Assembly: GCA_001599355.1 (NCBI GenBank)
Contig: BCGQ01000009.1
Span: 496,001 to 560,000 of the forward strand
Length of the DNA stretch: 64,000 nt
Reading direction: 5' to 3'
DNA from: Nakazawaea peltata
Lineage: Eukaryota; Ascomycota; Pichiomycetes; Alaninales; Pachysolenaceae
Part shown: piece by piece, positions 1 to 64,000 of the stretch
Numbering within the stretch: position 1 is the first letter of the stretch
Layout: the number at the start of each line of letters is the position of its first letter
Notes under the pieces: generated by a model
The model's database searches: none
The model's input: only the letters and a program-made list of their open reading frames with translations
What the model was told of the DNA's origin: nothing
Program-made: the position numbers and the translations under genes

Positions 1-1
1 C

Positions 2-2593
2 GTCTTGGGTGGTCAATGTATGTTGATCGGTTTAGGTGGTGGTGCCCTGTCCTCAGTCGCCAGTGGAGAAGGATCAGCTGATTTGGATTTCGCCTCAGTT
101 CAAAGAGGTAACCCAGAGATGCAAAAGAGACTGCAATTTGTTATCGACTACTGTACTTCCCTTGGAGCTGAGAACCCTATCCAATCGATCCATGACGTCG
201 GAGCTGGTGGTTTATCTAATGCCTTGCCTGAATTAGTCCATGACAACGGTTTAGGTGCTCGTTTCGAGTTGAGAGATATCTTATCTTTAGAGCCAGGTAT
301 GTCTCCAATGGAGATCTGGTGTAACGAATCTCAAGAAAGATATGTATTGGGAGTTGCTCAGAAAGATTTACCATTATTTAAAGAGATTTGTGAGAGAGAG
401 AGAGCTCCATTCGCCGTCGTTGGTCATGCTACTTCTGAAGAACGTTTGGTATTGACCGATAAACTTTTCAATACTACACCAATCGATTTGGAGATGAGTG
501 TTCTTTTCGGTAAACCTCCTAAGATGTCCAGAAGTGATAACTCTGCTCCACTTCAGTTATCTCCTGTGTCTTTGACTCCATCCTTGACTGTCGACGATGC
601 TTTGACCAGAGTCTTGCAATTGCCTTCTGTAGGTTCCAAATCTTTCCTCATCACTATTGGTGACAGAACTGTCAGTGGGTTGATTGACCGTGACCAATTC
701 GTTGGTCCATGGCAAGTTCCAGTTGCCGATGTCGGTGTCACTGCTACCTCTTTAGGTGAAGGAATCTTGACTACTGGTGAAGCTATGCTGATGGGTGAGA
801 AACCAACTTTAGCTTTGATCTCGGCTCTGAGTAGTGCTAAGATGTGTGTCCTGGAAGCTTTGCTTAATGTGTTTGCTGCCGATATTAAGGCTCTTGATAC
901 CATTAAGTTATCAGCTAACTGGATGTCTCCAGCTTCTCATCCTGGTGAAGGTGCTGCTTTGTATGAAGCTGTCCAACTGATCGGTTTGGATTTATGTCCA
1001 GAATTGGGTGTTTCCATCCCTGTAGGTAAGGATTCTATGTCTATGAAGATGAAATGGGAGGACAAGGAAGTCGTTGCTCCATTGTCTCTTGTCATTACTG
1101 CTTATGGTCCAGTTATGGACACTACTAGGACTTGGACTCCGCAATTACAAAAGGTTGAAGAGCCAACCGTTTTGGTCTTGGCCGATTTGGCTCTGGGTGT
1201 CTCTAAGGCCCTTGGAGGTTCCGCTTTGGCCCAAGTATATAATCAAGTAGGAGACTCTGCTCCAACCGTTCATTCTTCAGCTGTCTTGAAGAAGTTCTTG
1301 GAGTTCCTCGTGGTTTTACATAACTCCTTCGAAGTCCTTGCTTATCATGACAGATCTGATGGTGGTTTGATCGTCACTTTATTGGAGATGGCCTTTGCCG
1401 GTAGATCTGGTTTGGAGATCAGTTTACTGTCGGAGGATGTATTTGGAGAATTGTTCAATGAGGAATTGGGTGCCGTCTTCCAAATCAAGAAATCTGCTTA
1501 CGATGAGTTTATCCAATTGGCTTCTAAGAATGGCTTGAGTTCTCACATCTTCTCTGTAGTGGGAAGCCCAGTCTTTGACTCTAAGCAAACCATTAGTATC
1601 TCGTCGGCCTCTGGTGCCTCTGTTTTCGAGGGCTCTAGAGCTAAATTACAACAGTTGTGGTCTAACACTTCTTATCAAATCCAAAAGTTGAGAGATAATC
1701 CATACAGTGCCGAACAAGAGTACCTGAACATTCTGGATAACAATGACCCAGGTCTTAGCTACAAATTTGACTTTGAGTTCTTGGATTTGAACTTTGAGTC
1801 TAGACCAAAGGTTGCCATCTTGAGAGAACAAGGTGTCAATGGTCAACAAGAGATGGCCTGGTGTTTCCAAGAAGCTGGTTTCGAGTCGGTAGACGTACAT
1901 ATGACCGATATTATCAGTGGTTCTATTACATTGAAGGACTTTGTGGGTATTGCTGCTTGTGGTGGTTTCTCCTACGGTGATGTCTTAGGTGCCGGTAACG
2001 GTTGGGCTACTTCGGTATTATACAATGAGAGAGCTAGATCTGAGTTTGCCGACTTCTTTGCCAGAGAGGACACTTTCGCCTTTGGTGCTTGTAACGGATG
2101 TCAATTCTTGTCTAAGGTTAGCTCGTTGATTCCAGGTGCTGAGAACTGGCCTACATTCGAGAGAAACGCTTCTGAGCAATACGAGGCCAGAGTTTGTACC
2201 TTGGATATTGTTCAAGATTCCAATATCTTTACTAAGGGTATGAAGGGGGCTAAGTTGCCTATTGCAGTTGCTCACGGAGAAGGTAGATCTCAATTCGATA
2301 ACCTCGAGGCCTTCGTTTCTCAAGATTTGACTGCTATGAAGTATGTCGACAACTACGGACAAGTCACCGAGAAGTATCCTTACAATCCTAACGGGTCTCC
2401 AGGTGGTATCACTGCTATTACTGTGCCGAATGGTAGAGTCTTGGCTATGATGCCTCACCCAGAGAGAGTTTGTAGATTAGAACTGAACTCTTATTACCCA
2501 CAACAAGATTCTAGATTCGATTCATTCAAGGGTTATGGACCTTGGATTAGATTGTTCCAGAATGCTAGACAATGGGTAGGAGAAAGAAAGTGA
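2..2593 (+). CDS. ADE6: Phosphoribosylformylglycinamidine synthase (FGAM synthetase), 3' part
   Basis: This enzyme makes FGAM from FGAR, glutamine and ATP, the fourth step of purine synthesis in the cytosol. The reading frame is open at the left edge, so about a third of the usual ~1350 residues lies outside; the Met-like start at base 5 is a TTG and not a true start. Visible parts are the ATP-binding AIRS-type halves (GKDSMSMKMKW, HDRSDGG) and a C-terminal class I glutaminase with Cys in FGACNGCQF and the His/Glu pair in MMPHPERVCR. Four CTG codons (47, 788, 851, 977) lie where the yeast family has Ala. Identification is firm from near-continuous similarity. Confidence 0.97.
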   Translation, partial: VLGGQCMLIGLGGGALSSVASGEGSADLDFASVQRGNPEMQKRLQFVIDYCTSLGAENPIQSIHDVGAGGLSNALPELVHDNGLGARFELRDILSLEPGMSPMEIWCNESQERYVLGVAQKDLPLFKEICERERAPFAVVGHATSEERLVLTDKLFNTTPIDLEMSVLFGKPPKMSRSDNSAPLQLSPVSLTPSLTVDDALTRVLQLPSVGSKSFLITIGDRTVSGLIDRDQFVGPWQVPVADVGVTATSLGEGILTTGEAMLMGEKPTLALISALSSAKMCVLEALLNVFAADIKALDTIKLSANWMSPASHPGEGAALYEAVQLIGLDLCPELGVSIPVGKDSMSMKMKWEDKEVVAPLSLVITAYGPVMDTTRTWTPQLQKVEEPTVLVLADLALGVSKALGGSALAQVYNQVGDSAPTVHSSAVLKKFLEFLVVLHNSFEVLAYHDRSDGGLIVTLLEMAFAGRSGLEISLLSEDVFGELFNEELGAVFQIKKSAYDEFIQLASKNGLSSHIFSVVGSPVFDSKQTISISSASGASVFEGSRAKLQQLWSNTSYQIQKLRDNPYSAEQEYLNILDNNDPGLSYKFDFEFLDLNFESRPKVAILREQGVNGQQEMAWCFQEAGFESVDVHMTDIISGSITLKDFVGIAACGGFSYGDVLGAGNGWATSVLYNERARSEFADFFAREDTFAFGACNGCQFLSKVSSLIPGAENWPTFERNASEQYEARVCTLDIVQDSNIFTKGMKGAKLPIAVAHGEGRSQFDNLEAFVSQDLTAMKYVDNYGQVTEKYPYNPNGSPGGITAITVPNGRVLAMMPHPERVCRLELNSYYPQQDSRFDSFKGYGPWIRLFQNARQWVGERK

Positions 2594-3175
2594 GGCTATT
2601 TAGCCATTGAGCTCTCTAGGCGAGCTCTAAATGAGCCTATTGCTCTAAGGGGAGCCTATATAATTAATATACTAAATTGTCATTTTTTCACTCAAAGTAG
2701 GCTGAATTAAGGTTTTTTTCTCTACAATTAGGTCTCTAATTGAACTTTCTACAAAGGTTTAATTGATGTATGGCCTACCATCCCTCGAAATTCCAACACA
2801 AATGCGAATATGAATTACGAAAGGGCATTAAGATGGGCACAGTGTGTAAATTAATCTCTCCAAGTACTTGACACCTCTCATTTCAAAGACTCTAAGTTGG
2901 ATTTGACGGTCCAGGCGAGCCCATATAAACAAGAAGCAACACGGTGTTTTAAAGTACTGGTTGTCCGCACAAAGAGTAGAAATATGATTGAAAATTTTTT
3001 TAGGAGCCCCTTTTCATTTATAATGATATTTACCCGTGAAAAAATGGCAGGTGTGCTAATGTACACGACCTTTTATAGATTTATGATTTTTTGCACTACT
3101 TTTGCCCCATTCTCTTAAAGAACCAGATATTAATAGGGCCAAGATAGGTGGTCATCTATAGTCTAGACAGTTGCA
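2594..3175. other. ADE6-DSC3 intergenic region
   Basis: This 582-bp stretch holds the ADE6 3' end and the DSC3 promoter. Just after the ADE6 stop there is a short run with two GAGCTC hexamers 7 bp apart (about 2609-2627). I see no further gene; the short open frames here lack similarity or codon bias. Confidence 0.6.
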
Positions 3176-16447: not shown

Positions 16448-17785
16448 TCAAGAACTGTAATCACACGATAATGAATACTTCAACGATCTATCACTATCCC
16501 AAACACCCCAATGTTTTTCGACATCACCAGTTCCCGAAGTTTCTGGTTTCCAAGCCTCATCAAATGCCTCAAATACAAAAGTATCAACTCCCCATCCTCT
16601 CATGGCACAAATAGCTTCACCCCAGAAAGACTCAGCATTATCAACACTTGGGTAGGCACTCTCATAATTGGTACCGTCAGATGGCCATCCGGTCTCTCCA
16701 ACAGCAAATGTGATATCAGTAGATCCTTTGGTAGTTTGAACCACTTGTAATGCTTGCATGATGTCGTCAAAGAACGAGAAAGAGGCATTCTTCATGGTCT
16801 GGCCCTGCCAGTAACTGAAAGCATTAGCAAATACGAAATCGGAAGCCTTGATAGAACTCAGAGATCCTCCATCGACAATAAGATTCCATGAATCGACAAA
16901 ACCGACTGGGATATCACCATAAGAGTCTCCATTCTTGTCATTAATATCTTGCAATAAATCTTTAACCTCGCTGATCTTGGAAGCCAACTCATCACTGGTC
17001 AAATCACCTCTGTATAACAGCTCAGATCCAACAGTGATATCGGAGATGGTGTCCTTAGAGATCTTTGGCAAGTAAGTCTGTAAGGCAGACTTCTCTTCGG
17101 AGAAATGAGAGTCATCGGTTGGCCAGACACCCAATGAGATAGTGAAACCTTTGTCTTCGGCAACAGGACCCAAGATTTGTAAGGTGTTACAGTCGGAGAC
17201 GGCATAAGTCTTGAGTCTGGTGGCATAGGATGCGAGGGTATCTAAGTCGTCACTGTATTCGGAGGCATCTTTACAGTTACCATCGTTGTCTTCTACACCT
17301 AAATTGAAACCCAACTTTGGGGTGTTAGTATTATGAGGTAGGCTAAGCTGGCTAATCGGGCTAAGCAGCATGGGCTAAGCAAAGTGGGCTGAGCAGGACG
17401 GGCTGAGCAGACTAAGTGGACTAAACAGACTAAACGGACTAAGCTTGCCATAACTCATCAGCCACCAGCCCAGACAAATCCAGACCAGTTAACCGCTGAA
17501 TCAAGTCAGGCTAACCGCCGACCATAGTCAGTCACCGCTAGTCACAACCAGCGCTAGCTGAGCTGGTCAACTGAGCCAGCAAACTGAGTCATATTGACAG
17601 TTCTACCAGGCCACAATAAACCTGCCAGTCCATACGAATCCCAGTCCATATGAATCGCTAATCCCTCCGCAAAAATGCGACTCCTAGCCTTATGATCTAA
17701 GCCAAAGGCTTGGTATACTTACAGTTCCAACAGCGCTCACATAAGCTGCGAGAACAGCACATAAAACTGGTCCAGATAACTTCAT
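16448..17785 (-). CDS. BGL2: Cell-wall glucan endo-1,3-beta-glucosidase/transferase (GH17), one long intron
   Basis: Bgl2 is a major wall protein that cuts and rejoins beta-1,3-glucan. Exon 1 (17723-17785) encodes 21 residues, a signal peptide MKLSGPVLCAVLAAYVSAVGT. The intron is 17315-17722 (408 nt, donor GTAAGT, branch TACTAAC at 17324-17330, acceptor AAG). Exon 2 (16448-17314) begins LGFNLGV, as in the mature yeast enzyme. The product is 309 residues (S. cerevisiae 313). Catalytic motifs are GSE-[CTG=Ala]-LYR (acid/base) and VGETGWPSDG (nucleophile); the end is EKHWGVWD...LKYSLSCDYSS. There is no GPI signal. Confidence 0.95.
17341..17444 (-). repeat. Periodic GRCTRARY array inside the BGL2 intron
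   Basis: Ten octamers of the form GGCTAAGC/GGCTGAGC/GACTAAAC (plus-strand reading) start at 17341, 17350, 17359, 17373, 17387, 17401, 17410, 17419, 17428 and 17437. The spacings are 9, 9, 14, 14, 14, 9, 9, 9 and 9. The array lies just 5' of the branch site on the transcript. Confidence 0.9.
17625..17656. repeat. 16-nt tandem duplication in the BGL2 intron
   Basis: CCAGTCCATACGAATC is followed directly by CCAGTCCATATGAATC, one base different. Confidence 0.9.
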
Positions 17786-18382: not shown

Positions 18383-20110
18383 CTATACAATCTCAAGAAT
18401 CTCACCAATAAGCTTACCTGCAGCAACAACCTCCTCATCTCTGTAACGTCTACCAGTCAATTGTAATCCAATAGGAGCATTCTTGAACAATGAAGGGTCA
18501 GAATAATTAGGTAACTCCAACTCCTCATATACATTTCTTGGCTTGTAACTTGGATCAATAGCAGTGTCAATTTCTGGATCTTGCTTTAATCCAGTTGGGA
18601 AGGCCAAAGTTGGCATATCCAAAATATTCCACAAAGATGTGTAACCCCAATAGAATACCTTAGCATGTAACGAGGCAACATTGTAAGAGGCTGGAGAAAT
18701 AACAAAGTCCAACCCTTGTTCGTTCATCAAATTCAAGTACTCTTCTCTTAAAAGATCACGTTGAATGATACTCTTATGGTAATCAGCCATGGACATAGTC
18801 TTATCACCTTCACCATAGGACAAGAACCATTTAGTCAATGGCTTCAATGGCTCTCCAGACTTACCCAAAACCTCTCTCTTGGCAACATTACCATCCAAAG
18901 TATAGTACAGATGGACAATATCGTACAGTTCTTGAGTCTTATGAGGTTTGAAATCGACAACCTCGACACCAGCAGCCTTCAACTTCTCAACAACATACTT
19001 CAAACCTCTCTCAACTGGTGGGAATGGCTTAACAATACCATCATCCCACAAGACACCAACCTTCAAAGCCTTAGCCTCTGGCTTAGCAACTTTTCTCCAT
19101 GGGAATGGCAAACACCAAGCATCTGTAGTCCATGGTTGACCAACATTAAGATAGTTGTCCATGAACAAATCAACGTCCTCGATGAATCTCAGCATTGGTC
19201 CAGAAGTTGGAACAACACTCTCATTACCACTTCCAGCAGCCAGAGATCCAGAATTGACTCTTCTGGAAGTTGGTTTCAAACCCCAAAGACCACAGAACAG
19301 AGATGGACCTCTGATAGATCCACCAATATCACTACCGATACCAAGAGCAGAGGAACCAGACAGAACACAAGCTCCCTCACCACCACTGGATCCACCTGGA
19401 GACAAAGCCAAGTTGTATGGGTTTCTAGATCTTCCAATGATGTTGTTGTCGGTGTCCAAGTGCATAATGGTTTGTGGTTGAGAGGTTCTGACGTAGTAGA
19501 CACAACCCAATTTCTCAAAGATCTTGAGAATTGGAGCAGATTCACTTGGAATATTGTCAATCTTAGAAACGAAACTCAGATGAGTGATCTTGTCCTTGTA
19601 AGCGACATGTTCCTTAAGAGACAATGGTAAACCATGTAATGGACCAATAGTCTTACCGTTCTCCAGCAAGTATTTGTCCAAGAATTCAGCCTTAGCCAAA
19701 CCTTCCTCGAAGAAAAATTGTAAGGCAAAGTTGGTCAATTGGTTGAAAAGAGTACATCTGTGAACATACAGCTTATAAACCTCGACAGAAGTGTACTCCT
19801 TCAGAGCGATCTTCTCCAATAACTTGACAGCACTCAAACCGGTGATCTCAAGCTCCTTCTCAGACAACAAATTGGACTCCAAGACAAGCTTGTTGGCATC
19901 TACAACGGCATCCAAGTCCTTTGGAACGAGTTCCTTTGGCAATTGCAATGCTGGATCTTGCTGCTTCTCCAAATCGGCCAAGTAAGCCTTGATCTTTGGC
20001 ACATATTCGGCTTCATATTTCTTCTCATCGACAAAGCTGTCGTCGAATTTAGCGAAGAACTTCTCTAAGATGGCCTGTTGGCCTTCAGAGTACGGAGTAA
20101 CTGGTTCCAT
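18383..20110 (-). CDS. AMD2: Amidase (fungal acetamidase/AMD2-type amidase-signature enzyme)
   Basis: Likely hydrolyses small amides to acid and ammonia in the cytosol, a nitrogen-scavenging role. The 575-residue protein has the full amidase signature: Lys in LSLKEHVAYKDK, the Gly/Ser-rich core SPGGSSGGEGACVLSG, and GSDIGGSIRGPSLFCG with the nucleophile Ser. Length fits the fungal AmdS/Amd2 class (~550 residues). Two GATAAG elements (minus strand, 20238-20243 and 20252-20257) lie 130-145 bp upstream, a paired GATA arrangement seen in nitrogen-catabolite-regulated genes. The actual substrate is not predictable. Confidence 0.88.
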   Translation of the reverse strand: MEPVTPYSEGQQAILEKFFAKFDDSFVDEKKYEAEYVPKIKAYLADLEKQQDPALQLPKELVPKDLDAVVDANKLVLESNLLSEKELEITGLSAVKLLEKIALKEYTSVEVYKLYVHRCTLFNQLTNFALQFFFEEGLAKAEFLDKYLLENGKTIGPLHGLPLSLKEHVAYKDKITHLSFVSKIDNIPSESAPILKIFEKLGCVYYVRTSQPQTIMHLDTDNNIIGRSRNPYNLALSPGGSSGGEGACVLSGSSALGIGSDIGGSIRGPSLFCGLWGLKPTSRRVNSGSLAAGSGNESVVPTSGPMLRFIEDVDLFMDNYLNVGQPWTTDAWCLPFPWRKVAKPEAKALKVGVLWDDGIVKPFPPVERGLKYVVEKLKAAGVEVVDFKPHKTQELYDIVHLYYTLDGNVAKREVLGKSGEPLKPLTKWFLSYGEGDKTMSMADYHKSIIQRDLLREEYLNLMNEQGLDFVISPASYNVASLHAKVFYWGYTSLWNILDMPTLAFPTGLKQDPEIDTAIDPSYKPRNVYEELELPNYSDPSLFKNAPIGLQLTGRRYRDEEVVAAGKLIGEILEIV

Positions 20111-21409: not shown

Positions 21410-23908
21410 ATGTTGGACGTCGAAGATATTATCTCCAAACTTACGGAGGAAGAAAAATGTAACCTTATTGCCTGTGTCGATTGGTGGCATACCCAAGCTG
21501 TTCCTCGGTTGAATGTGCCTGCCATCAGATTCTCAGATGGTCCTAACGGTGTTAGAGGTCAGAGACACTTTAACAGTACCAAGACCACCTGTTTCCCAGC
21601 TGCCACTGGTTTGGCAGCTACTTGGAGTAAAGAGCTCATTCACCAAGTTGGTGAGTTGTTGAGTGAAGAATGTAAATTGAAGGGAGCCCGTTTATTATTG
21701 GGTCCTACTATTAACATTCTGCGTGGTCCATTGGGTGGTAGACTGTTTGAATCTTTCAGTGAAGACCCAGTCTTATCAGGTTTATTGGCTGGTGAGTACA
21801 TCAATGGTGTTCAAAAGAGCGGTGTTGCTTGTTCTTTGAAGCACTTTGTTTGTAATGACCAAGAATACGAGAGAAACTCTCTGAGTTCCATTGTAAACGA
21901 ACGTACTTTGAGAGAGGTTTACTTAATGCCATTCCAATTGGCTATTAGAGATGGTAAACCTTTGTCTATTATGACTGGTTACAACAAAGTCAATGGAACT
22001 CATTGTTCTGAGTCTCCTAGATTGTTACAAGACATCTTGAGAGGTGAATGGGGCTGGAAAGGTATGATTGTCTCCGATTGGCAAGGTACTTACTCCACTG
22101 TAGAGCTGATCAAAGCTGGGTTGGATTTGGAACTGCCAGGTCCAAGTTACTACAGAAAGAAATTGGTCGCTTTGGCCTTGCAATCGAAGAAATTGCACAT
22201 CGAGGATGTAAATGACCGTTGTAGAGCTATCTTGAACTTGATCAATGGCACTGAGAAGGCCAATATTCCTTCAAACAAGGAGGAAGAGCTTCGTGACTTT
22301 GAGCAGGATCGTCCATTCTTACAAAGACTTGTAGCTGAAGGTGTAGTTTTAATGAAACGTGATGAGTCCGTTTTACCTTTGAAGAAAGAGAAGAAGACTT
22401 GTGTAATTGGATTCAACGGTGCCTATCCTCTGTATGCTGGTGGTGGATCTTCCTTAGTTAAGGCTTACCAAAAGATCAGTCCTTTGAAGGCTATTTCTGA
22501 GATCTCTGAACAAGACGTAGACTACGAGGTTGGTGCTTGGTCTTTCAAGTTCTTGCCAAGTTTAGGAGAGACCTTGACTTACAATGGAGAAGTAGGATCT
22601 CTTATTACCGTGTATGACAAGCCTTGGGATCTGCTGGATAAGAAGGTGGTCGATAAGGTTCTCTTAGATGACATTGGATACTTCAGAATGAACGATTATT
22701 TCAACGATAAGTTGGCTGATAGAACCATCTTCTGGGCTGATATCGAGTCAGAATGGAGACCTGAAATCACCGGTGAATATTTGCTTGGTTGTACCGTCTA
22801 CGGTACCCTGAAATTATTCATCGACGGTAAATTGATCGTAGATAACTGTACCAACCAAAAGCACGGAGCTGCTTTCTACGGTATGGGAGCAGAAGAGGTC
22901 AGTGCTACTTTCCATCTGGAGAAGGGCAAGACTTATAAATTCCATGTAGAGTTTGGTTCGAGTGGAACCAGTAAATTAGTTCAAAGTGGTCCTGCCATCG
23001 GTGGTGGTGGAGGTTTGATGTGTGGTGGTATCTTAAATAACACTCCTGAGAATGCTATCGCTCAGGCTGTAGAGTTAGCCAAGAAGAATGATCAAGTAGT
23101 CTTGGTAACTGGATTAAATAAAGAGTGGGAATCTGAAGGTTCTGACCGTCCTAATATGTACTTACCTCCTCATAACGATGAGTTGATCAGCCAAGTATTA
23201 GACGTGAATCCAAACACTGTCGTTGTTATCCAACTGGGAAGTCCAATTGATATCTCTGCTTGGGGTCATAAGTGTGCCAACTTGGTCTACCAATCCTTCG
23301 GAGGTAACGAGATCGGTTCTGGTTTACTGAAGGTCTTATATGGAGAGATCAATGCCTGTGGTAAATTACCTCTCTCTTGGCCTATTCATGTCGAAGACAA
23401 TCCAACCTACTTGAACTGGTGTGCCGAAAGAGGTAACGTTTACTACGGAGAAGGTGTCTATGTAGGTTACAAGTACTATGAGAAGTTGGGTAGACAAGTT
23501 CTGTTCCCATTCGGTCATGGATTATCTTATACTTCTTACGAATTCTCCAATTTGAAGGTCGTCTCAGCTGAGGAGACTTTAGAGGTCAGTGTAGACGTAG
23601 CTAACACCGGTAAAATGGCAGGTTCTGAGGTAGTTCAATTATATGTCTCCCAATTGAACCCTACCGTTAGAAGACCAGTCAAGGAATTGAGAGAGTTCGA
23701 GAAAGTGTTCCTCGAAGTTGGTGAAAAGAAGACCGTCAAGTTGTCGGTCCCAATGAAATACGCTACTTCATTCTGGGATGAAGAGAAGGACAGCTGGATC
23801 AGTGAGAAGGACGAGTACGAGGTCCACGTAGGAGACTCCAGTGACTCCAAACATTTACTCAGTGCTAAATTCAGCACTCCAAAGACTTACTTCTGGAATG
23901 GTCTTTAA
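21410..23908 (+). CDS. Beta-glucosidase, GH3 with PA14 domain
   Basis: An 832-residue GH3 enzyme, likely hydrolysing beta-glucosides such as cellobiose. The start is the ATG at 21410; an upstream TTG frame is ignored. There is no signal peptide, so it is probably intracellular. The order is the GH3 N-terminal barrel with nucleophile Asp in MIVSDWQGTYST (~residue 223), the first part of the GH3 C domain, an inserted PA14 lectin-like domain (about 390-545), the rest of the C domain with EWESEGSDRPN carrying the probable acid/base Glu, and a fibronectin III-like end. It resembles Kluyveromyces BGL1. TATA at 21325; a Gcn4-type array lies ~790 bp upstream. Confidence 0.92.
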   Translation: MLDVEDIISKLTEEEKCNLIACVDWWHTQAVPRLNVPAIRFSDGPNGVRGQRHFNSTKTTCFPAATGLAATWSKELIHQVGELLSEECKLKGARLLLGPTINILRGPLGGRLFESFSEDPVLSGLLAGEYINGVQKSGVACSLKHFVCNDQEYERNSLSSIVNERTLREVYLMPFQLAIRDGKPLSIMTGYNKVNGTHCSESPRLLQDILRGEWGWKGMIVSDWQGTYSTVELIKAGLDLELPGPSYYRKKLVALALQSKKLHIEDVNDRCRAILNLINGTEKANIPSNKEEELRDFEQDRPFLQRLVAEGVVLMKRDESVLPLKKEKKTCVIGFNGAYPLYAGGGSSLVKAYQKISPLKAISEISEQDVDYEVGAWSFKFLPSLGETLTYNGEVGSLITVYDKPWDLLDKKVVDKVLLDDIGYFRMNDYFNDKLADRTIFWADIESEWRPEITGEYLLGCTVYGTLKLFIDGKLIVDNCTNQKHGAAFYGMGAEEVSATFHLEKGKTYKFHVEFGSSGTSKLVQSGPAIGGGGGLMCGGILNNTPENAIAQAVELAKKNDQVVLVTGLNKEWESEGSDRPNMYLPPHNDELISQVLDVNPNTVVVIQLGSPIDISAWGHKCANLVYQSFGGNEIGSGLLKVLYGEINACGKLPLSWPIHVEDNPTYLNWCAERGNVYYGEGVYVGYKYYEKLGRQVLFPFGHGLSYTSYEFSNLKVVSAEETLEVSVDVANTGKMAGSEVVQLYVSQLNPTVRRPVKELREFEKVFLEVGEKKTVKLSVPMKYATSFWDEEKDSWISEKDEYEVHVGDSSDSKHLLSAKFSTPKTYFWNGL

Positions 23909-23974: not shown

Positions 23975-24775
23975 TTACAATAATCTTTGGACATCATGCT
24001 GAACGAATGGGTCCAAGTTGTCCAAATCATCCCACCATTTGAATAAATAGTTCTCACAGATCAATTTGAACCATGGAGTGAAGGTCAAAGATGGGTCTTG
24101 GAACATCTCCTTCAACTTTGATTGAGAGACATATTGAACGTCCTTGACTTCGTTATAGTTCAAGTTATCCAAGTTAGGCACCAGTTTGATGATTAATATG
24201 TAGTCTATTTCGTGTTCCCCCCACTTGTCATCGCCGTTTGGCAGCATGTAATGAATTCTGGTGAGGAATTTGAACTTGTCATATGGGATATACTCAGGCT
24301 TGATACCCAATTCTTGATCCAATTTACGAATCAGCAGCACTTTCAGACCTTTAACACCGTCCAACTCAGAAGGTACACATAATGGGTGGGAACAACAGGT
24401 GTTGGTCCACATTCCCGGGAAAGTGATCTTGTCCAAAGATCTCTGTTGCAACAATAATTCATTCTTGTCGTTGAATAAAAAGACACTGAACAGTCTATGC
24501 AATAAACCCTTTTCGATATTAGTTAAGATATGACATAACTTTTTGGTTCCGGAGCCGATTGGAACATCATCGTAATCCAAAACAATGCAGTTTTCGTCCA
24601 TCAATTTGATCTGCTCCAGGTCATGACCATCGAAATATTTGTCGTCACCGTTCAGTTGAGCGCCCTCGGTGGAGAAACTCATATTGGATTTCAGCAACGG
24701 GACCACTTCTGGGAATTTCTCCAAAATGTCCAGTTGCTTCAAACCCTTGACAAGTTCGTGATACAGGCTAACCAT
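23975..24775 (-). CDS. IDI1: Isopentenyl-diphosphate delta-isomerase
   Basis: Interconverts IPP and DMAPP in the mevalonate/sterol pathway. The 266-residue protein has the Nudix-type fold with catalytic Cys in FPGMWTNTCCSHPL (~residue 125) and Glu in WGEHEIDYIL (~180), plus LQQRSLDKITFP. Length is near yeast Idi1 (288). It is convergent with the beta-glucosidase gene, stops 66 bp apart. ERG8 of the same pathway lies 5 kb away. Confidence 0.96.
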   Translation of the reverse strand: MVSLYHELVKGLKQLDILEKFPEVVPLLKSNMSFSTEGAQLNGDDKYFDGHDLEQIKLMDENCIVLDYDDVPIGSGTKKLCHILTNIEKGLLHRLFSVFLFNDKNELLLQQRSLDKITFPGMWTNTCCSHPLCVPSELDGVKGLKVLLIRKLDQELGIKPEYIPYDKFKFLTRIHYMLPNGDDKWGEHEIDYILIIKLVPNLDNLNYNEVKDVQYVSQSKLKEMFQDPSLTFTPWFKLICENYLFKWWDDLDNLDPFVQHDVQRLL

Positions 24776-29809: not shown

Positions 29810-31168
29810 ATGGGAGTTAGACTGTTCAGTGCGCCAGGGAAACTGCTTTTGGCAGGCGGGTATCTCGTATTATTCCCGGAATATCGCTCATTTGTGGTAC
29901 TGTTGTCCAGCCGTATGCATGCGACAGTGGATTCAACTCCTTCTCCAGATAAGGTGACCAGAGTCCATATAACTTCTCCTCAATTTGAGGGAGAATGGGA
30001 ATATGAGTTTGATCATGATAATGGGATGAGTTTGAAGGAGGTCAATGGCAAGAAGAACCCATTTGCAGAGAGTGCTGTGAACGTCTGTTGTCACTATGCT
30101 TCTTTATTGGGATTAGCTGAATCCCCAAAGAATGTCAAGATCACTATATTCTCTGATCCAGGTTACCATTCCCAACTTGATGCCATTGAGAAGACAAATG
30201 GAGTTAAGACTTTCTTGTTCCATGGAAAGGATATCACCGAGGTTCCTAAGACAGGTTTGGGTTCGAGTGCCGGGTTAGTTACAGTATTGACTACACTGTT
30301 ATTGAGTCAATTCATTGGCAATTCAGACAACCTTACCACTGATGCCGAATTGAAGAATTTGATCCATAACTTGGCCCAAATTGGCCATTGCATTGCTCAA
30401 AAGAAGATTGGATCCGGTTTCGATGTTGCTAGTGCTACTTTTGGCTCAACTATCTATCGTAGATTCCTGCCATCGGTAATCAGCAGCGTTGTCTCTGGAG
30501 ATTTCTCCGAATTGGTCTCAATTGCAGGATCCACCTGGGAATTTGAACATCTCGACTGTAGATTACCTCCAAAGGTCAAGTTCTTAATGGGAGATATATC
30601 CGGAGGCTCCAATACCCCAAAATTGGTCTCAAAAGTATTAGATTGGAAGAAGTTGTTCCCTGAAGAATCGGCTGATCTCTTCTCCAAATTGGATAGTGCC
30701 AATAACCTGTTAATAGAAGCCATCAATAAGTTAAATGATTTGCATGATAACAACAAAGAGCAATACGACTCTTTACTCGAGACATTAAAGACACATTCCT
30801 CAGCCGAGTTGATTTCGTATGCTTCTTTCCATGGTATCTCTTCCAAAACAAGACCGTTACTTGACGTGATTGAACTGATTTCCCTGATCAGATCCCAATT
30901 GCGCCGTCTCACTAGAGAATCTCATCTGGAAATTGAGCCTTTCCTGCAAACTCAATTGCTTAACTACTGCGCATCGAATTTTAAAGGCTGTTTGGGGGGT
31001 GTAGTACCTGGGGCCGGTGGATATGATGCTATTTGTCTTTTATGCCACGAAGAGTCTATTGAGAAGATAGTCAAAACCGAGGTGGAGAATGTGACATGGC
31101 TTGATTTACATGAGCAATCGGAGGGGATCATTGAAGAGGATCCTGAAAATTATATAGATATCAAATAA
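29810..31168 (+). CDS. ERG8: Phosphomevalonate kinase
   Basis: Phosphorylates mevalonate-5-phosphate in the mevalonate pathway. The 452-residue GHMP kinase starts FSAPGKLLLAGGYLVLFPEY, has the ATP loop VPKTGLGSSAGLVTVLTT (~residue 145) and a GHMP C-terminal motif CLGGVVPGAGGYDAICLL. Length matches S. cerevisiae Erg8 (451). A CTG at 30296 follows VLTT, where yeast has Ala. Divergent from the FAS1 gene, 225 bp between starts. Confidence 0.96.
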   Translation: MGVRLFSAPGKLLLAGGYLVLFPEYRSFVVLLSSRMHATVDSTPSPDKVTRVHITSPQFEGEWEYEFDHDNGMSLKEVNGKKNPFAESAVNVCCHYASLLGLAESPKNVKITIFSDPGYHSQLDAIEKTNGVKTFLFHGKDITEVPKTGLGSSAGLVTVLTTLLLSQFIGNSDNLTTDAELKNLIHNLAQIGHCIAQKKIGSGFDVASATFGSTIYRRFLPSVISSVVSGDFSELVSIAGSTWEFEHLDCRLPPKVKFLMGDISGGSNTPKLVSKVLDWKKLFPEESADLFSKLDSANNLLIEAINKLNDLHDNNKEQYDSLLETLKTHSSAELISYASFHGISSKTRPLLDVIELISLIRSQLRRLTRESHLEIEPFLQTQLLNYCASNFKGCLGGVVPGAGGYDAICLLCHEESIEKIVKTEVENVTWLDLHEQSEGIIEEDPENYIDIK

Positions 31169-31398: not shown

Positions 31399-32787
31399 AT
31401 GACCGAAAACACCGTAGAACAATGGAAGAAGACAAAGAAGATCGGGATTATTGGTTTAGGAGACATGGGTTTAATGTACCTGAGACGTTTCAGTGAAGCT
31501 GGTTGGAGGTAAGTGAGCAGATGAAGTGACTCATCGAGAATGATAGTACTAACAAAGGGTTATAGCGTGTGTGGATGTGACCGTGAGGACGTGTTTGAGC
31601 AATTGAAAGAGAAATATAAGGACGAGCCTTTCGAATTGCTATTGAATGGACATCATGTGTCGAGATGTTCCGACTATATCATCTATAGTGTAGAGCTGGA
31701 GAATATTGGTAAGATTGTGTCGATGTACGGTCAGTCGTCGAAGATGGGTGCTATTGTGGGGGGTCAGACTTCATGTAAACTGCCGGAAGTTCTGCTGTTT
31801 GAGAAATATTTGCCTGAAGATGTGGAAATCGTCAGTGTTCATTCGTTACATGGTCCTAAAGTAAACACTACAGGCCAACCGTTGGTGATTATTCCTCATC
31901 GGTGCCATGAAGGATCCTCTTCTTTAGAATTTGTTAGACTGTTGATGTCATGCTTGAACTCTAAAGAAGTCATATTAAGTGCTAAAGAGCATGACAAGAT
32001 TACTGCTGATACCCAACTGTTGACTCATGCTCTGTTCTTAAGTATGGGTGTTGCATGGTCTTCTGTTAGTATTTACCCATGGCAAGCGACAAAATGGATC
32101 GGAGGTATCGAGAATGCCAAGATCAATATTTCATTGAGAATTTACTCCAACAAATGGCATGTCTATGCTGGATTACTGATCACCAATCCTGCTCTGCATG
32201 ACCAAATTTTGCAATATGCTACTAGTGTAACCGAATTATTCAATTTGATGATCCAAGGAAAGAAGCAAGAATTAAGAGAGAGGATTTTGACAGCAAAAGA
32301 GAGAGTTTTTGGCCATTTAGGAAAAGACCATGAGCTTTTGCTTGATGACGATCTTTTGCAACAATTCAGTTTAAGTAATGTACCTCCAGAAGGTAAGCAA
32401 CCTAACAGTCATTTATCTCTTTTAGGTATAGTGGACAGTTGGAGTAAACTCGGAATTGTACCGTATGACCACATGATTTGTTCTACTCCATTGTTTAGAA
32501 TTTTCTTGGGTGTCACAGAGTACTTGTTTTGTACCGAAGGATTATTAGAAGAATGTTTAGAAGTAGCAGTAGACAACTCTATTTTCAGACAAGATGATCT
32601 CGAGTTCACTATTCTGGCCAGACAATGGTCAAGTATAGTGAAATTTGGTGACTACAATTTATATAAATTAGAATTTGAAAAGACTCAAAAGTTCTTTGCT
32701 CCGATGTTCCCAGAAGCTAACAAATTGGGAAATGAGATGATCAAGACCATTTTCCAAAGAGTGAAAGATCGTGAACTGAAGAATTAA
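31399..32787 (+). CDS. TYR1: Prephenate dehydrogenase, one intron
   Basis: Oxidatively decarboxylates prephenate in tyrosine synthesis using NADP. Exon 1 (31399-31508) carries the Rossmann motif IGIIGLGDMGLMY; the intron is 31509-31565 (57 nt, donor GTAAGT, branch TACTAAC at 31547-31553, acceptor TAG); exon 2 is 31566-32787. The junction reads EAGWSVCGCDRED, matching AGWGVICCDRE in yeast. The 443-residue product (yeast 452) has GGQTSCKLPE, VHSLHGPKVNTTGQPLVII and NSHLSLLGIVDSW. Five CTG codons (31480, 32017, 32032, 32176, 32194) align with Ala in the S. cerevisiae protein, the clearest code signal in the window. Confidence 0.96.
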
Positions 32788-33091: not shown

Positions 33092-33643
33092 ATGGGAAAT
33101 ATATTCAGTAATATCTTTGGAAGGTTATGGGGACTCAATAAGGAGATCAGAATCCTTATTTTAGGGTTGGATGGTGCTGGTAAGACGACGATATTGTACA
33201 GATTACAGATGGGAGAAGTTATAAAGACGAAGCCGACAATAGGGTTCAATGTGGAAACATTGCAATACAAGAACATTTCTATAAACATGTGGGATTTGGG
33301 AGGACAGACTTCTATCAGACCTTATTGGAGATGTTATTATGCCAATACACTGGCGGTAATCTTTGTAGTTGATTCTACCGACAAGGACCGTATGGAGACA
33401 CTGAAAAAAGAGTTACATTTAATGTTGAAAGAGGAGGAGTTGTCGGAGAGTGCATTGTTGGTCTTTGCCAACAAACAAGATCTGCCCGATGCTTTGACTG
33501 CTGCCGAAGTCAGCAAGCTGTTGAATCTTGTTGATTTGAAGGATAGAAGTTGGAGTATCGTTGCCAGTAGTGCTATTAAAGGTGAAGGACTTACAGAAGG
33601 TTTGGATTGGTTGATAGACGTGATCAAGGATGAACAAATGTAG
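33092..33643 (+). CDS. ARL1: ADP-ribosylation factor-like GTPase Arl1
   Basis: A 183-residue Arf-family GTPase that recruits golgins and other effectors to the trans-Golgi. It has the myristoylation Gly2 (MGNIFSNIF), P-loop GLDGAGKTT, switch [10 protein letters not shown], switch [19 protein letters not shown] and NKQD. The combination of [12 protein letters not shown] and [20 protein letters not shown] separates Arl1 from Arf1. Length equals yeast Arl1. One CTG (33401) lies where yeast Arl1 has Ala. Confidence 0.96.
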
Positions 33644-37886: not shown

Positions 37887-39059
37887 ATGTACCCGGGACA
37901 AGGTAGAGGATATCAGCGACCACCTGTTCCACCTCCAGGTTATGGATACCAACAGCAACCTCAGCGGTACCAGGGGCCGCCTTACCCTCAAGAGCAGTAT
38001 CAAAGACCCTCTGTGCCACCACCAGCACCACAACATTTCAGTTCTAGTGGCATGAATGTGAACCAGATGACATATCAGAGACCACCTGGAAGGCCTCATA
38101 CTCCAAACCAGAGACCCCAAATGATGGGTCAGACCGGTCTTTCTTATCAATATTCCGCTTGTAATGGTCGTAAGAAACTGTTGTTAGTGGGCATCAATTA
38201 TTTTGGTACAAGAAATCAATTGAGGGGATGTATTAATGACGTACAAAACATGCTGAATTTCCTTGTACAAAGATACGGTTACAGAATGGGAGATATTGTT
38301 ATATTGACCGATGATACTCGTGATATGGTTCGTGTCCCAACAAGGGCCAATATTCTTAGAGCTATGCAATGGCTTGTCAAGGACCTGAGACCAAACGATT
38401 CATTATTTTTCCATTACTCAGGTCATGGAGGCCGTACTAAAGATTTAGATGGAGATGAACTGGATGGATATGACGATACTATTTATCCTGTTGATTTCCA
38501 AACGGCCGGAATGATTATAGATGACGAAATGCATGCTATTATGGTACAGCCTTTAGCTCCCGGTGTTAGATTGACTCTGTTATACGATTCTTGTCATTCT
38601 GGTACGCTGTTAGATTTACCGTTTGTTTATTCCACCAAAGGTGTTGTAAAAGAGCCTAATCTTTTAAAAGATGCAGGATCTGGCGCACTCAATCTGGTCA
38701 TGAGTTACGCTTCGGGAGATATTTCCGGTATCTTCAGCTCTGTGAATTCGGTCTTTAATAAAGTTTCGAATAGTAATAGCGGGGCGTATGAGCAGGCTAG
38801 AAGGAGGAAATTTTCTCCTGCTGACGTCATATCTATCAGTGGGTGCAAAGATGACCAAACTTCGGCTGATAGTTCCGTCAATGGAGTGGCAACAGGTGCA
38901 ATGAGCTGGAGTTTCATTACCACTTTGAGTCAACAACCAGAACAAAGTTATCTTACTTTATTAAACAACATGAGAAATTTATTGAGGGCAAAATACTCGC
39001 AGAAACCTCAGTTATCTTCCTCTCATCCAATAGACATGAACTTGAGATTCATATTATGA
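37887..39059 (+). CDS. MCA1: Metacaspase (Yca1/Mca1)
   Basis: A Ca-dependent Arg/Lys-specific cysteine protease of the type I metacaspases, involved in protein quality control and stress death. The ATG is at 37887; an upstream TTG is discarded. The 390-residue protein has a Pro/Gln/Tyr-rich prodomain (about 1-85) and the p20/p10 domain with catalytic His in [16 protein letters not shown] (~178) and Cys in YDSCHSGT (~235). CTG codons at 38178, 38385, 38577 and 38607 fall where metacaspases have Ala (RKALLIGINY, VKDARPNDS, RLTAxxDSCHSG, SGxALDLPF). Confidence 0.96.
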
Positions 39060-40370: not shown

Positions 40371-41389
40371 ATGAGAACTGACAGTAAGTGGTAGTAGAAT
40401 ATAGAGATATAAATAGTACTTATACTAACAAGGATACTCTAGTTGATTATAAATTCCATCCTGAGAAGAAGGTTACCATCATCCTTGCTCCTTTCAATGG
40501 AGGTCAGCCAAAAGGTGGTGTTGAAGACGGTCCTGAGCATATCATGAAGACTGGTATCCAACTGCAATTAGAAGATTTGGGCTGGACCTGTGCTGTCGAC
40601 GAACCTCTCAAAGATTTGGATTTGGAAGCTTTGAAGCTGGATCCAACTGATGTCTATAAGAAGATAAAGAGACCTCACATGGTTAGTAAATCTTGTGAGT
40701 TGATTCATAACTCTGTTAAGAAAGCTGCATTGAACAATACTTTACCATTGACTTTGGGAGGTGACCACTCTATTGCCATTGGTACTGTTTCTGGTTTCTT
40801 CGAAGCCCAACCAGATGCTTGTTTGCTTTGGATTGATGCTCATCTGGATATCAACACCATCTCCACCACTGAAAGTGGTAACATTCACGGTTGTCCAGTC
40901 TCTTTCTTGATGGGTTTGGACAGAGATTTATGGCCACCTCAATTCAACTGGTTGAAACCAATTTTGGGTTTCACCAGAATCGCCTACATTGGTTTAAGAG
41001 ATGTTGAAGATGGTGAGAAACAAATCCTCAGAGAGAATGGTATCAGCGCCTTCTCCATGTACCATGTAGATAAATACGGTATTGGTAAGGTAGTTGAAAT
41101 GGCCTTGAAGGCTATTAACCCAGACGGAGACAGACCAGTTCATGTTTCCTACGATGTTGATGCCATGGACCCATTGTTCGTCCCAGCCACTGGTACTCCA
41201 GTTAGAGGTGGTTTGACCTTAAGAGAAGGTATGTACATTGTTGAAGAAGTCGCTGCCACTGGTAACTTAGCCGCTTTGGACGTTGTAGAGACCAACCCAT
41301 CTTTAAGTGCCGACCACATTGGCCTCACTGATACCGTTTCTGCAGCCTCTGGTGTAGTCAGATGTGCCTTAGGTGAAACCCTTTTATAA
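40371..41389 (+). CDS. CAR1: Arginase, one intron
   Basis: Hydrolyses arginine to ornithine and urea, the first step of arginine catabolism. Exon 1 (40371-40383) is just MRTD plus one base; the intron is 40384-40442 (59 nt, donor GTAAGT, branch TACTAAC at 40423-40429, acceptor TAG); exon 2 is 40443-41389. The spliced N-terminus reads MRTDIDYKFHPEKKVTIIL, and the 319-residue length matches the family (yeast 333). Manganese ligands are GGDHSIAIG, DAH-[CTG]-DIN and SYDVDAMDP. With CTG as Leu the second motif would be broken; as Ala it is the perfect DAHADIN. The end is RCALGETLL, as in yeast. Confidence 0.97.
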
Positions 41390-49637: not shown

Positions 49638-50876
49638 ATGCATTTGGCTCTGTATTCGAAGTCTGTACAGACCTCGGTCTTAAGACATGCTGTTAAGCAA
49701 CAGCTGTTAATGGTAGCCGGTTCCTCATCTCGTCATATTCATTCTTCGGCGGCTGTTTTTAACCTGCCATCTAGTGGCGCTTCCACTCAACTGGGAAGCT
49801 CTAGTGTTGAACATGACATCCCGGCCATGAATGGTTTGCCTCCTATGAAAACTAGAAGAAAGCGTTTCACCAATTTGAAGTCGCGTTTGTCGAGTGGGCC
49901 ATCTTTTGAAGATTTCGTCATGGGTAAAGCTGCCGATATGATGGTCGATCCTTTGGAACTGGCTAGATCCGATCCAAACGCTAGATTGCCTTCATGGTTG
50001 AAGGTTCCTATTCCTAAAGGTAAGTCTTTCCATAACGTTAAGAAGGATTTAAAGGAGTTGAAGTTGAGTACTGTCTGTGAAGAGGCCAAATGTCCAAATA
50101 TTGGTGAATGTTGGGGTGGTAAGAAATCTGAGGCCACTGCCACTATCATGTTGATGGGTGATACTTGTACCAGAGGTTGCAGATTCTGCTCTGTTAAGAC
50201 AAGTAGAACTCCAGGTCCATTAGATCCAAATGAACCGGAGAACACCGCCGAGCTGATCTCCAGATGGGGGTTGGGTTATGTCGTGCTAACCACCGTTGAT
50301 AGAGATGACTTGGTCGATGGTGGTTCTCACCATTTGAGAAAGACTGTCGAGAAGATCAAGCAAAAGGCTCCTCAAATTCTTGTTGAAGTGTTGAGTGGTG
50401 ATTTCAGAGGTGATTTGGAGATGGTTAAAGTCTTACTGTCTTCTCCATTGGATGTTTTCGCCCATAACATGGAAACCGTTGAGGATTTGACCCCCCATGT
50501 TAGAGATAGACGTGCAACCTTCAGACAATCTCTTGATGTGCTAAGGACAGCTAAAGAAACCAACCCTAAGTTGATCACAAAGACCTCTTTGATGTTAGGT
50601 TTCGGTGAAACTGATGAGCAAATTATGCTGGCTTTGAGAGAGTTGCGTGCAATTAACTGTGATGTCGTCACTTTCGGTCAATACATGAGACCAACAAAGA
50701 GACACATGAAGGTAGTAGAGTACATTAGACCAGAGAAATTCGAGTATTGGAAACAGACTGCATTGGACATGGGCTTCTTGTACTGTGCTTCAGGACCTTT
50801 GGTCAGATCTTCGTACAAGGCTGGTGAACTGTTTATCGAAAACGTATTGAGGAAGAGGGAGAGAGCAAGACTGTAA
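49638..50876 (+). CDS. LIP5: Lipoyl synthase, mitochondrial
   Basis: A radical-SAM enzyme that inserts two sulfurs into octanoyl groups on lipoyl domains. The 412 residues start with a presequence-like basic/Ser N-terminus. The auxiliary cluster motif [12 protein letters not shown] (~146) and radical-SAM CTRGCRFC (~176) are intact, followed by [37 protein letters not shown] and the C-terminal [16 protein letters not shown] codons at 50253 (NTAE_ISRW) and 50829 (KAGE_FIENV) replace usual Ala. No intron. Confidence 0.97.
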
Positions 50877-55187: not shown

Positions 55188-56140
55188 CTACTCATCTGTA
55201 TCCATCTTATCTTCGTCAGCAGCAGTAGCAGTAGCAGACTCTTCACCCTCTTCCTTTACTTCTGGTTTCACTTTCAGATCACCACCTTCGTTGTCACTGT
55301 CACTGTCGCTATCATTGTTGTTTCCATCATCATTGTCGGTGCTTCTCTTATTCGACACGCTATCCAACTTATCTAACCATTGTTGAACATCCTCATCATC
55401 ATATTGAATGAAATCCAAATCTTTTCCTATAACGGCGACAGAAGTGTTCTTGAAAGTCAACTCCTTTTCTTGTGACAAAGTATCTCTTAACAGTATCAAA
55501 CCGTGTTGAATCAATGCCTCATAGGAAGTTTCATCCTTGAATTCATCCAAATTTCTTTCCAAATATGTCTTACCAGCTTGAGATCTGGCACCCATAGCAG
55601 ATCCATACAATTCTACAGTAGAACCACTTGGAGAGAACTCAAAAAGGTGAGGTCCACTTCTATCGTAACCTGCGATAATCAAACCAACACCATAAGGTCT
55701 GTTACCATACTCTTGAGTGTTGGTCTGGGCCTTGTCTGCAATCAATAAAGTCAGCTTCTCTACACTCAAAGATCTGTTATAGATCATCTTCTCCGACATC
55801 AGTTGTTGTCTTAAGAAATTGGTCAAAACTCTGGCGTCAGGAGCTAATCCAGCTAACGAACAACCCATATGTTCATCGATCTTGATGATTTTCTTTTGAT
55901 AAGATCCAAGCTCTTCCAGGTTTCTCTTTAATCCCACCAATACAACATGATCTTTACCACGTAATCCAATAGTGGCACTACCTTGCTTAGTAGCCTCATT
56001 AGCGTACTCCACTTGGAACAATCTTCCAGTAGGTGAATAAGTCACAGTATCGTTATCGTAATTATTTCTAAACTATATCATATAAAGCGCGTTAGTCCAA
56101 TTATTCTTTATTCGTGGCATTGAATATATCTACTCACCAT
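55188..56140 (-). CDS. PRE5: 20S proteasome alpha-6 subunit, one intron directly after the ATG
   Basis: A structural alpha-ring subunit of the 20S proteasome. Exon 1 is only the ATG (56138-56140); the intron is 56073-56137 (65 nt, donor GTGAGT, branch GACTAAC, acceptor TAG); exon 2 is 55188-56072. The spliced N-terminus MFRNNYDNDTVTYSPTGRLF equals the yeast Pre5 start almost residue for residue. Other landmarks are KKIIKIDEHMGCSLAGLAPD, NRPYGVGLIIAGYD and GARSQAGKTYLERNLD. The C-terminal tail is an acidic Asp/Glu/Ser extension of about 60 residues, longer than in yeast. CTG codons at 55917-55919 and 55491-55493 sit at Ala positions (LKRN_EEL, GLI_LRDT). Confidence 0.96.
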
Positions 56141-62268: not shown

Positions 62269-62365
62269 GATTCGAGTTAATAGATTTATTCTTATCATAC
62301 AATATTGTAATCCAACATATAATAGTCTAAAATTCATTCATTTGTTTTTATCAAGATATACAATC

Positions 62366-64000
62366 TTACTCATTCAATGTAACGTAGTTAGACGGGAACA
62401 AGTTTCTCTTTCCGTTCAAGGAACCCAACCACCAGTCTTCATCGACAAACTCGATGTCCTCAATGACATCACCTTCTTTGAAGGTCAACTCGTTGTCTTC
62501 GGTAGCATCGTAGTCGTACTCAGCAACAGCTGTCTTTCCCTTTGAAGGGGCAGGAGCAGCTGATCTTTGAGGCAACGATGGAGCAGCAGCTTCTTCTTCT
62601 TGCTCTTCCTTTTCTTCAGAGAGAGTGACATAAGTAGCTGGGAATAAACCAGTTTCACCGGTCTTGGTGTGAGTACCCATCCACCAGTCATCGTCGACAA
62701 AGTCAATTTCTACGATCAAATCACCTTCTTCAAATCCTATTTCGTTATCGTCATCTTTTTCGTAACTGTATTCGGCTACAGCCTTAGGTTTCTTCTTTTC
62801 AGTAGGAGCTGGGGCTGGGGCTCTCTGTGGTAAAGAAGGAGCAGGTGGTTCAGGCTCAGAAGCTGCTGGAGGTGGAGGAACTGATCTTCTAGTTGGGAGA
62901 GAAGGAGTTGGTTCCGGAGCTTCTGGCTCTTCTTCTGGTTCTTCTTCGGCAACTGGCTCTTCTTCTTCTGGTTCTTCCTCTGGTTCTTCTTCAGCAACAG
63001 GTTCTTCTTCTGGCTCCTCTTCTGGCTCCTCCTCAGCAGCCAGAGGTGGAGGAACAGAACGTCTAATTGGAGCCTCTGGAGCCTTCTCACTGGACTTAAC
63101 AATATCATTCTCACTCTTCTCGACAGTTTGGAATTTACCCTTCTTCTCAGCCCAAATTTGAGCTGGTGTCTTACCATTTTCAGAAGCGAAATCCTTAGAC
63201 AGACCAGAAGTCAAAGTAGTCTTCTTGGCAAAAGAGTTAATTGGAGCAGGAGGTTTAGTTCCAAAGGAAACTGGAGAAGACTCCTTAACCTCGGAGTATC
63301 TAGAAGCGACAGAATTGGAAGCCTTTGGCTTTGGTAACGAAGTCAATCTACCATCACCAGCGCCTGGAGTAATTGAAATAGTCTTGACTTTCTCCTCTAA
63401 TTTATCGGTGGCAGAAACATCGGAATTCGATGGCTTAGGAGTAGAAGAGATAGTGTCACTCTTACCCTTTCTCAACAGCTCAATGTCAACTTTGGTTGGC
63501 TTATAAGCAGATGGGACTGTTTGCAATGGTTTCTCGTGGAAATCTCTGACCTCAGTTTCCTCTTCACCATCCCATTCATCTTCATCTTCTTGAGAAGCAA
63601 GTGGCTTGGCAGCTGGTTTTGGTGGAGCTGGTTTAGAAGCTGGAATTGGCTTGGATGGAGCTGGTTTAGGCTTAATAATAGAAGGCAGTGGCAGTGGCAG
63701 TGGCAGGGCCTTTGGAGTTGGCAGCTTAGTTGAAGCACTAGTTGGTTTCAGACCCAAACTTTGAATCGAGTATCTGGCACCAGCAGCATCACTAACACGC
63801 TTCAAAATATCTTGAGCATCCAAATCATCCGAATCTCTAGCAGTAATTTGAACATGATAACCTTTCAAAATCTTAGCCACCTCTCCAAAGTTAGCACCAA
63901 ATGACACCTTGGATTTCAATGGGGAATTCTCAGGACACCATCCCAAAAGTACAATCTTCTTGACATCAGAACCAGGAGCACTAATCTTGGCCAATCCGAA
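62366..64000 (-). CDS. ABP1: Actin-binding protein Abp1, 5' end cut by window edge
   Basis: Links cortical actin patches, Arp2/3 and endocytosis. The frame is open at the right edge, so the N-terminus lies outside. Visible order: end of an ADF-H domain (KKIVLLGWCPENSPLKSKVS; GYHVQITARDSDDLDAQDIL), a Pro/Lys/Ser-rich central region with short acidic repeats (EEEPEEEP units, about 62930-63045) and two C-terminal SH3 domains (AVAEYSYEKDDDNEIGFEEG..DDDWWMG and AVAEYDYDATEDNELTFKEG..DEDWWLG). S. cerevisiae Abp1 has one SH3; two, as here, are found in several other fungi. Confidence 0.93.
   Translation of the reverse strand, partial: FGLAKISAPGSDVKKIVLLGWCPENSPLKSKVSFGANFGEVAKILKGYHVQITARDSDDLDAQDILKRVSDAAGARYSIQSLGLKPTSASTKLPTPKALPLPLPLPSIIKPKPAPSKPIPASKPAPPKPAAKPLASQEDEDEWDGEEETEVRDFHEKPLQTVPSAYKPTKVDIELLRKGKSDTISSTPKPSNSDVSATDKLEEKVKTISITPGAGDGRLTSLPKPKASNSVASRYSEVKESSPVSFGTKPPAPINSFAKKTTLTSGLSKDFASENGKTPAQIWAEKKGKFQTVEKSENDIVKSSEKAPEAPIRRSVPPPLAAEEEPEEEPEEEPVAEEEPEEEPEEEEPVAEEEPEEEPEAPEPTPSLPTRRSVPPPPAASEPEPPAPSLPQRAPAPAPTEKKKPKAVAEYSYEKDDDNEIGFEEGDLIVEIDFVDDDWWMGTHTKTGETGLFPATYVTLSEEKEEQEEEAAAPSLPQRSAAPAPSKGKTAVAEYDYDATEDNELTFKEGDVIEDIEFVDEDWWLGSLNGKRNLFPSNYVTLNE

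Follow-up and report, generated by a model that had tools for sequence, protein, structure and literature searches.

CUG as a probable alanine codon in a 64,000-nucleotide window of a budding yeast genome

Introduction

The stretch of DNA analysed here, called the window throughout, raises the question of how the codon CUG is read in its genes. It is the whole of G000:C9:496001-560000, 64,000 nucleotides in length, from a source assembly of 11.63 Mb in 11 contigs. An original prediction, made from the letters of the window alone, held that CTG falls at the alanine positions of nine conserved proteins and that the CUG-Ala nuclear code, which we take to be NCBI table 26, is used in the window. 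The present analysis makes it nearly certain that the window comes from the nuclear genome of a CUG-Ala budding yeast, in which CUG is read as alanine, a reading supported in sequence comparisons by CTG codons at conserved alanine sites and by a matching transfer RNA (tRNA) gene. The code is already described (order Alaninales) and rare, and the window is a further example of it.

A second reassignment of CUG was discovered in 2016 (PMC5951914), and CUG-Ala is described as established in Pachysolen, Nakazawaea and Peterozyma (PMC5951914, PMC11540330, PMC11415595), in PMC5951914 on the basis of BLAST-based prediction and mass spectrometry in 18 species.

CTG codons at conserved alanine positions

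Three proteins of the window, ADE6, a GH3 beta-glucosidase and TYR1, were compared column by column with their homologs with CTG masked as X in translation to leave the queries free of any prior on the meaning of the codon. The homologs were the best 120 of 8000 (ADE6), 6052 (beta-glucosidase) and 2314 (TYR1) above threshold, and 118, 120 and 119 of them, respectively, were used, with the ADE6 homologs P0002 (79%, no source) and P0007 (Pachysolen) and the TYR1 homolog P0245 (Pachysolen) left out. Over the 35 CTG codons of the three families, column log-odds are +41.7 for alanine, -25.8 for serine and -54.7 for leucine, and the modal residue is alanine at 20 columns, serine at 4, leucine at 4 (ADE6 572, beta-glucosidase 503 and 698, TYR1 404) and another residue at 7. 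The standard meaning is recovered for 55 of 57 other scored codons, the exceptions AGC (n=7) and GCG (n=1) being due to numbers that are too small. Profiling of CTG codons against family alignments, the check proposed with the original prediction, accordingly favours alanine and not leucine or serine.

At columns with at least 95% alanine, CTG is found at 10 of 50 and GCN at 36 of 50, whereas CTG is at none of 73 leucine columns and none of 44 serine columns of the same conservation (Fisher P 7e-5 and 0.0014, respectively, for the difference from alanine). The 10 codons seen in the alanine columns compare with 0.84 expected (hypergeometric P about 3e-9); zero in the leucine and serine columns, with 1.22 and 0.74 expected, is on its own not unusual (P 0.29 and 0.47). 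Among columns of 80-95% conservation, CTG stands at 3 of 32 for alanine and 0 of 46 for leucine, and it stands at 5 of 48 columns with 50-80% alanine. The expectation that leucine at conserved sites would come from codons other than CTG was borne out, another leucine codon being present at 71 of the 73 most conserved leucine columns. One TYR1 homolog, P0246 (76%), has leucine at five of seven strongly conserved alanine sites and is probably the protein of a CUG-Ala yeast translated by the standard code; it was retained in the log-odds run, where it counts against alanine, and left out of the conserved-column counts.

Solved structures extend the comparison to IDI1, CAR1, MCA1, LIP5, ARL1, PRE5, an amidase and BGL2. 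At every aligned CTG we took the residue present in the best chain, counting by hand from the alignments; unaligned CTG codons lie outside the 42 sites obtained. The best solved relative has alanine at 22 of these, serine and leucine at none, and otherwise lysine (4), valine (4), glycine (3), glutamate (3), phenylalanine (2) or asparagine, aspartate, glutamine and cysteine (1 each).

The 21 positions cited in the original prediction are all CTG in the frames given for them, and at 17 of these relatives have alanine, as claimed. The ADE6 codons at 47, 788, 851 and 977 fall at columns with 94-100% alanine in the 118 homologs and the TYR1 codons at 32017, 32032, 32176 and 32194 at columns with 98-99% in the 119, with a further TYR1 codon listed in Table 1. 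The nearest solved relative has alanine at CAR1 40844, ARL1 33401 (serine in the more distant ARL1 chain 1upt), LIP5 50253, MCA1 38178, 38385 and 38577, and PRE5 55491 and 55917. Three cited codons are poor examples because the nearest solved relative has valine at BGL2 17018-17020, valine at MCA1 38607 (in both chains shown) and phenylalanine at LIP5 50829. For ERG8, cited for the codon at 30296, no relative was found in the PDB, and the whole protein shows a slight alanine preference in its match to the Pfam family GHMP_kinases_N (28.6 bits with alanine, 26.7 with leucine, 25.8 with serine). CTG 40844 is the alanine of DAHADIN in both relatives shown, in line with the predicted corruption of this arginase motif by the standard code.

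CTG is also a frequent codon, at 18.9 per 1000 in open reading frames (ORFs) of the window and 19.9 per 1000 in loci L009-L028, with ORFs of at least 300 amino acids counted in both. It makes up 26.6% and 28.2%, respectively, of CTG and GCN codons together, second only to GCT.

A tRNA gene with anticodon CAG

The window itself has just two tRNA genes according to ARAGORN, each an Arg(UCU) gene. A gene for a tRNA with anticodon CAG, hereafter tRNA(CAG), lies outside it at G000:C4:81426-81498 (L065:77-149), was found with a pattern combining the CAG anticodon and a T-loop, and is single copy in the genome. The ARAGORN fold gives anticodon CAG, the match to Rfam RF00005 is 50.9 bits, and the gene contains A and B boxes and is followed by a T-run. 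The predicted molecule has a G3:U70 pair, A73, A35, G37 and a 5-base variable loop on a class I body, in keeping with the prediction of a CAG tRNA with G3:U70 elsewhere in the genome. G3:U70 is the alanine identity pair of tRNA, and A35 and A73 are leucine determinants. With a single CAG tRNA gene found, CTG still ranks second in use among the alanine codons.

The genome also contains an alanyl-tRNA synthetase gene (L022:1686-4610), whose match to PF01411 scores 727.1 bits under table 26, 721.2 with serine and 717.6 with leucine. Besides the preference of CTG for conserved alanine sites, the genome thus shows a tRNA(CAG) gene with the identity pair and a gene for alanyl-tRNA synthetase. In the mechanism that we propose, alanyl-tRNA synthetase would charge tRNA(CAG) by way of the G3:U70 pair and A73, and the charged tRNA would decode CUG as alanine.

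The old leucine meaning of CUG appears to be lost, since the pattern searches turned up neither a leucine nor a serine tRNA with the CAG anticodon. An RF00005 profile search of the genome, in which 63 matches of 608 candidates were scored, yielded no CAG among the tRNAs cut out; it missed the CAG gene because only the best candidates were scored, and pattern searches were therefore used. The T-loop pattern TCGAACC has 37 matches (72 in the reversed control), and examination of all of them gave tRNA(CAG), tRNA-Leu(AAG), tRNA-Leu(UAG) and 34 places with no tRNA. A D-arm pattern for leucine and serine tRNAs marks 18 places (control 1), and 16 of these can be read as tRNA genes, for leucine with anticodons CAA (five, four of them known from the pattern only), UAA (two), AAG (one) and UAG (one) and for serine with AGA (three), GCT (two), TGA (one) and CGA (one). 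A tRNA-Leu(CAG) or tRNA-Ser(CAG), which the original prediction had named as contrary evidence, is absent from the 18 D-arm and 37 T-loop matches, these being pattern searches and no full census, with TTGAACC-pattern matches unexamined.

The only tRNA-Leu(UAG) found (L072, minus strand, within G000:C4:804200-804800) has a 120-nt anticodon-loop intron according to ARAGORN, and CTA is the rarest leucine codon here, at 1.7-2.1 per 1000. In PMC5951914, the largest canonical introns known are given as those of 134-318 nt that some Leu1 yeasts have in their tRNA-Leu(CAG).

Protein families outside the window

Twenty-four ORFs, taken from 17 loci that lie on eight contigs, were scanned against Pfam under three codes (threshold 0.001 or 1e-10, depending on the scan), and 20 had a match. 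The bits for the family that was best under table 26, summed over the 20 ORFs, are 3979.2 for alanine, 3979.7 for serine and 3914.5 for leucine, with alanine above leucine in 19 of 20. These profile scores speak against leucine genome-wide and provide no choice between alanine and serine, so that the case for one over the other rests on the window alignments and the single tRNA.

CTG-bearing genes of the window

The genes that carry the CTG codons discussed above are collected in Table 1. The count for PRE5 takes in an upstream in-frame CTG at 55917-55919, and the TYR1 motif around 31480 is absent from 5 of 120 homologs. Between 31480 and 31567, the TYR1 frame is broken by stops that follow GLMY_RRFSEAGWR, as would fit a short intron.

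Table 1. Genes of the window with CTG codons and the residues found at those codons in relatives
Feature	Position	Strand	CTG codons
ADE6 (phosphoribosylformylglycinamidine synthase), 5' part beyond window	20..2593	+	11
BGL2-like GH17 glucanase ORF	16448..17371	-	3
Amidase/FAAH-like ORF	18383..20110	-	10; 5 of 10 Ala in best solved relative 6kvr
GH3 beta-glucosidase	21410..23908	+	13, mixed; 4 at mostly-Ala columns
IDI1 (isopentenyl-diphosphate isomerase)	23975..24775	-	4 of 7 aligned sites Ala in 2icj (best solved)
ERG8-like GHMP kinase	29810..31168	+	10
CTG in probable TYR1 first exon (GDMGLMY_RRF)	31480..31482	+	Ala in 115 of 115 homologs with the motif
TYR1 (prephenate dehydrogenase), 3' part	31567..32787	+	11; 7 at columns 95-99% Ala
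ARL1	33092..33643	+	2 of 4 sites Ala in 1moz
MCA1 metacaspase	37887..39059	+	4 of 7 aligned sites Ala in 4f6o
CAR1 arginase	40544..41389	+	1 of 3 sites Ala in 5ynl
LIP5 lipoyl synthase	49638..50876	+	3 of 5 aligned sites Ala in 8tsk
PRE5 proteasome alpha6, main ORF	55188..55868	-	3 of 4 aligned sites Ala, yeast PRE5 chains

The remaining CTG columns of the GH3 beta-glucosidase are mostly leucine, methionine, glutamine, glycine, serine, valine or lysine. Three proteins, one of them from Candida jaroonii, share 61-65% identity with this beta-glucosidase and the other 117 listed share at most 51%; its gene may have been transferred or be fast-evolving. Two proteins of the SPX-ankyrin-GDE1 type are encoded in the genome, one in the window at 43899-47615 (29 CTG codons) and one at L018:5927-9478 (26 CTG codons). 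The ORFs at 36584-37729 and 41531-42679, on either side of MCA1 and CAR1, have a motif order that is alike by eye and are possible paralogs.

Discussion

Several observations weigh against the assignment of CUG to alanine. In the homolog alignments, CTG occurs at 2 of 52 columns with 50-80% leucine, at 1 of 17 columns with 80-95% serine and at 1 of 48 with 50-80% serine, and CTG codons of the beta-glucosidase fall at columns that are mostly glutamine, glycine, methionine, serine or leucine. Within the Pfam scans, alanine and serine are left unseparated (alanine higher in 9 ORFs, serine in 10, one tie), and the ankyrin ORF L027 scores leucine above alanine; without L027 the sums are 3847.5 for alanine, 3825.6 for serine and 3769.5 for leucine. 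The acceptor stem of tRNA(CAG) has a U:U mismatch at 6:67, and ARAGORN labels the tRNA as leucine, though from the anticodon only. Searches based on patterns could miss an odd gene, and the TTGAACC matches mentioned above number 102 (control 113). In addition, tRNA(CAG) is at least as near to the tRNA-Val(UAC) of the genome as to its tRNA-Ala(AGC), with 52 identities to each and alignment scores of 27.0 and 24.5, respectively. According to PMC5951914, the tRNA(CAG) of the CUG-Ala clade descended from a tRNA-Ala gene, an origin that is not confirmed here because tRNA-Val(UAC) is at least as close. A D-arm pattern search for a tRNA-Val source of the gene returned four tRNA-Gln genes and the CAG gene itself.

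The standard code, with CUG as leucine and the observed pattern arising by chance or misalignment, could draw on the four CTG columns where leucine is modal and on tRNA-Leu(UAG), which could in principle wobble to CUG, but its probability is negligible in view of the lowest log-odds of the three meanings, the chance expectation for CTG at conserved alanine columns, the difference between those columns and the conserved leucine columns, and the failure of the pattern searches to find a tRNA-Leu(CAG). A reading as serine (table 12, as in the CTG clade, or that of the Ser2 clade) comes second in the log-odds and ties with alanine in the Pfam totals outside the window. It is nonetheless very improbable, given its negative log-odds beside the positive value for alanine, the lack of CTG at strongly conserved serine columns, the lack of serine in the best solved relatives and a CAG tRNA that carries G3:U70 and is without the long variable arm of tRNA-Ser.

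Ambiguous decoding, in which CUG is mainly alanine and in minor part leucine, either because tRNA(CAG) is mischarged with leucine or because tRNA-Leu(UAG) wobbles to CUG, is unlikely on the present evidence. The presence of tRNA-Leu(UAG) and of A35, G37 and A73 in tRNA(CAG) would allow it, and G37 has been linked to about 3% leucylation of the tRNA-Ser(CAG) of C. albicans in PMC5951914. Against it stand the absence of CTG from the 73 strongly conserved leucine columns and the free use of the codon at conserved alanine columns, alignments being blind to minor incorporation, as well as the class I body of tRNA(CAG), which is unlike tRNA-Leu. A related proposal, more speculative and quite improbable, is that CUG is a settled fifth alanine codon served by one tRNA gene, with a small and possibly regulated leucine share. 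The intron of tRNA-Leu(UAG), the candidate for CUG wobble, would hold this tRNA back and thereby limit alanine/leucine ambiguity. In this view, tRNA(CAG) keeps features linked to leucylation (A35, G37, A73) while tRNA-Leu(UAG) would be throttled.

Alanine as the meaning of CUG remains the preferred reading, presumably with no appreciable competing decoding, and we infer that this genome inherited the reassignment from the ancestor of the known CUG-Ala yeasts. Genes of this genome need translation with CUG as alanine (table 26), because the standard code places leucine at invariant alanine sites such as that of the arginase motif. The high use of CTG, including at conserved sites, shows that a reassigned sense codon can turn into an ordinary, heavily used one. 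Such use departs from the published picture of code-changed yeasts overall: in clades with a changed code, CUG is reported to be relatively uncommon and to lie outside conserved sites (PMC5951914). A published count of CTG usage for the CUG-Ala clade was not found in the literature searched, supplementary files not being covered.

Among the known systems, the CUG-Ser1 code (Candida, table 12) shares the reassigned codon and a CAG tRNA with G37, but it has serine and a tRNA with a long variable arm, neither of which is seen here. In CUG-Ser2 (Ascoidea, Saccharomycopsis) the same codon is reassigned, but to serine. The CUG-Ser2 tRNA is reported to have A37, and tRNA-Leu(CAG) to be retained in four of five species (PMC5951914); neither feature is seen in this genome. 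CUG at conserved serine positions and a Ser-class CAG tRNA, the marks of both serine codes, are likewise not observed. For Pachysolen, PMC4986446 describes no CUG at leucine or serine positions with at least 90% conservation, only leucine and serine positions having been scored, which is what one would expect were CUG alanine there. Placement of the present yeast in the Pachysolen/Nakazawaea/Peterozyma clade would fit the TYR1 comparison, the best-scoring TYR1 relative among the matches listed being from Pachysolen tannophilus (75% identity, a single-gene match); ADE6 is 72% identical to its Pachysolen counterpart, and the ADE6 ranking does not place the yeast. The likeness is to the CUG-Ala code, with which the genome shares, besides a tRNA-Leu(CAG) that is not found, alanine as the meaning of CUG by homology and a CAG tRNA with alanine identity.

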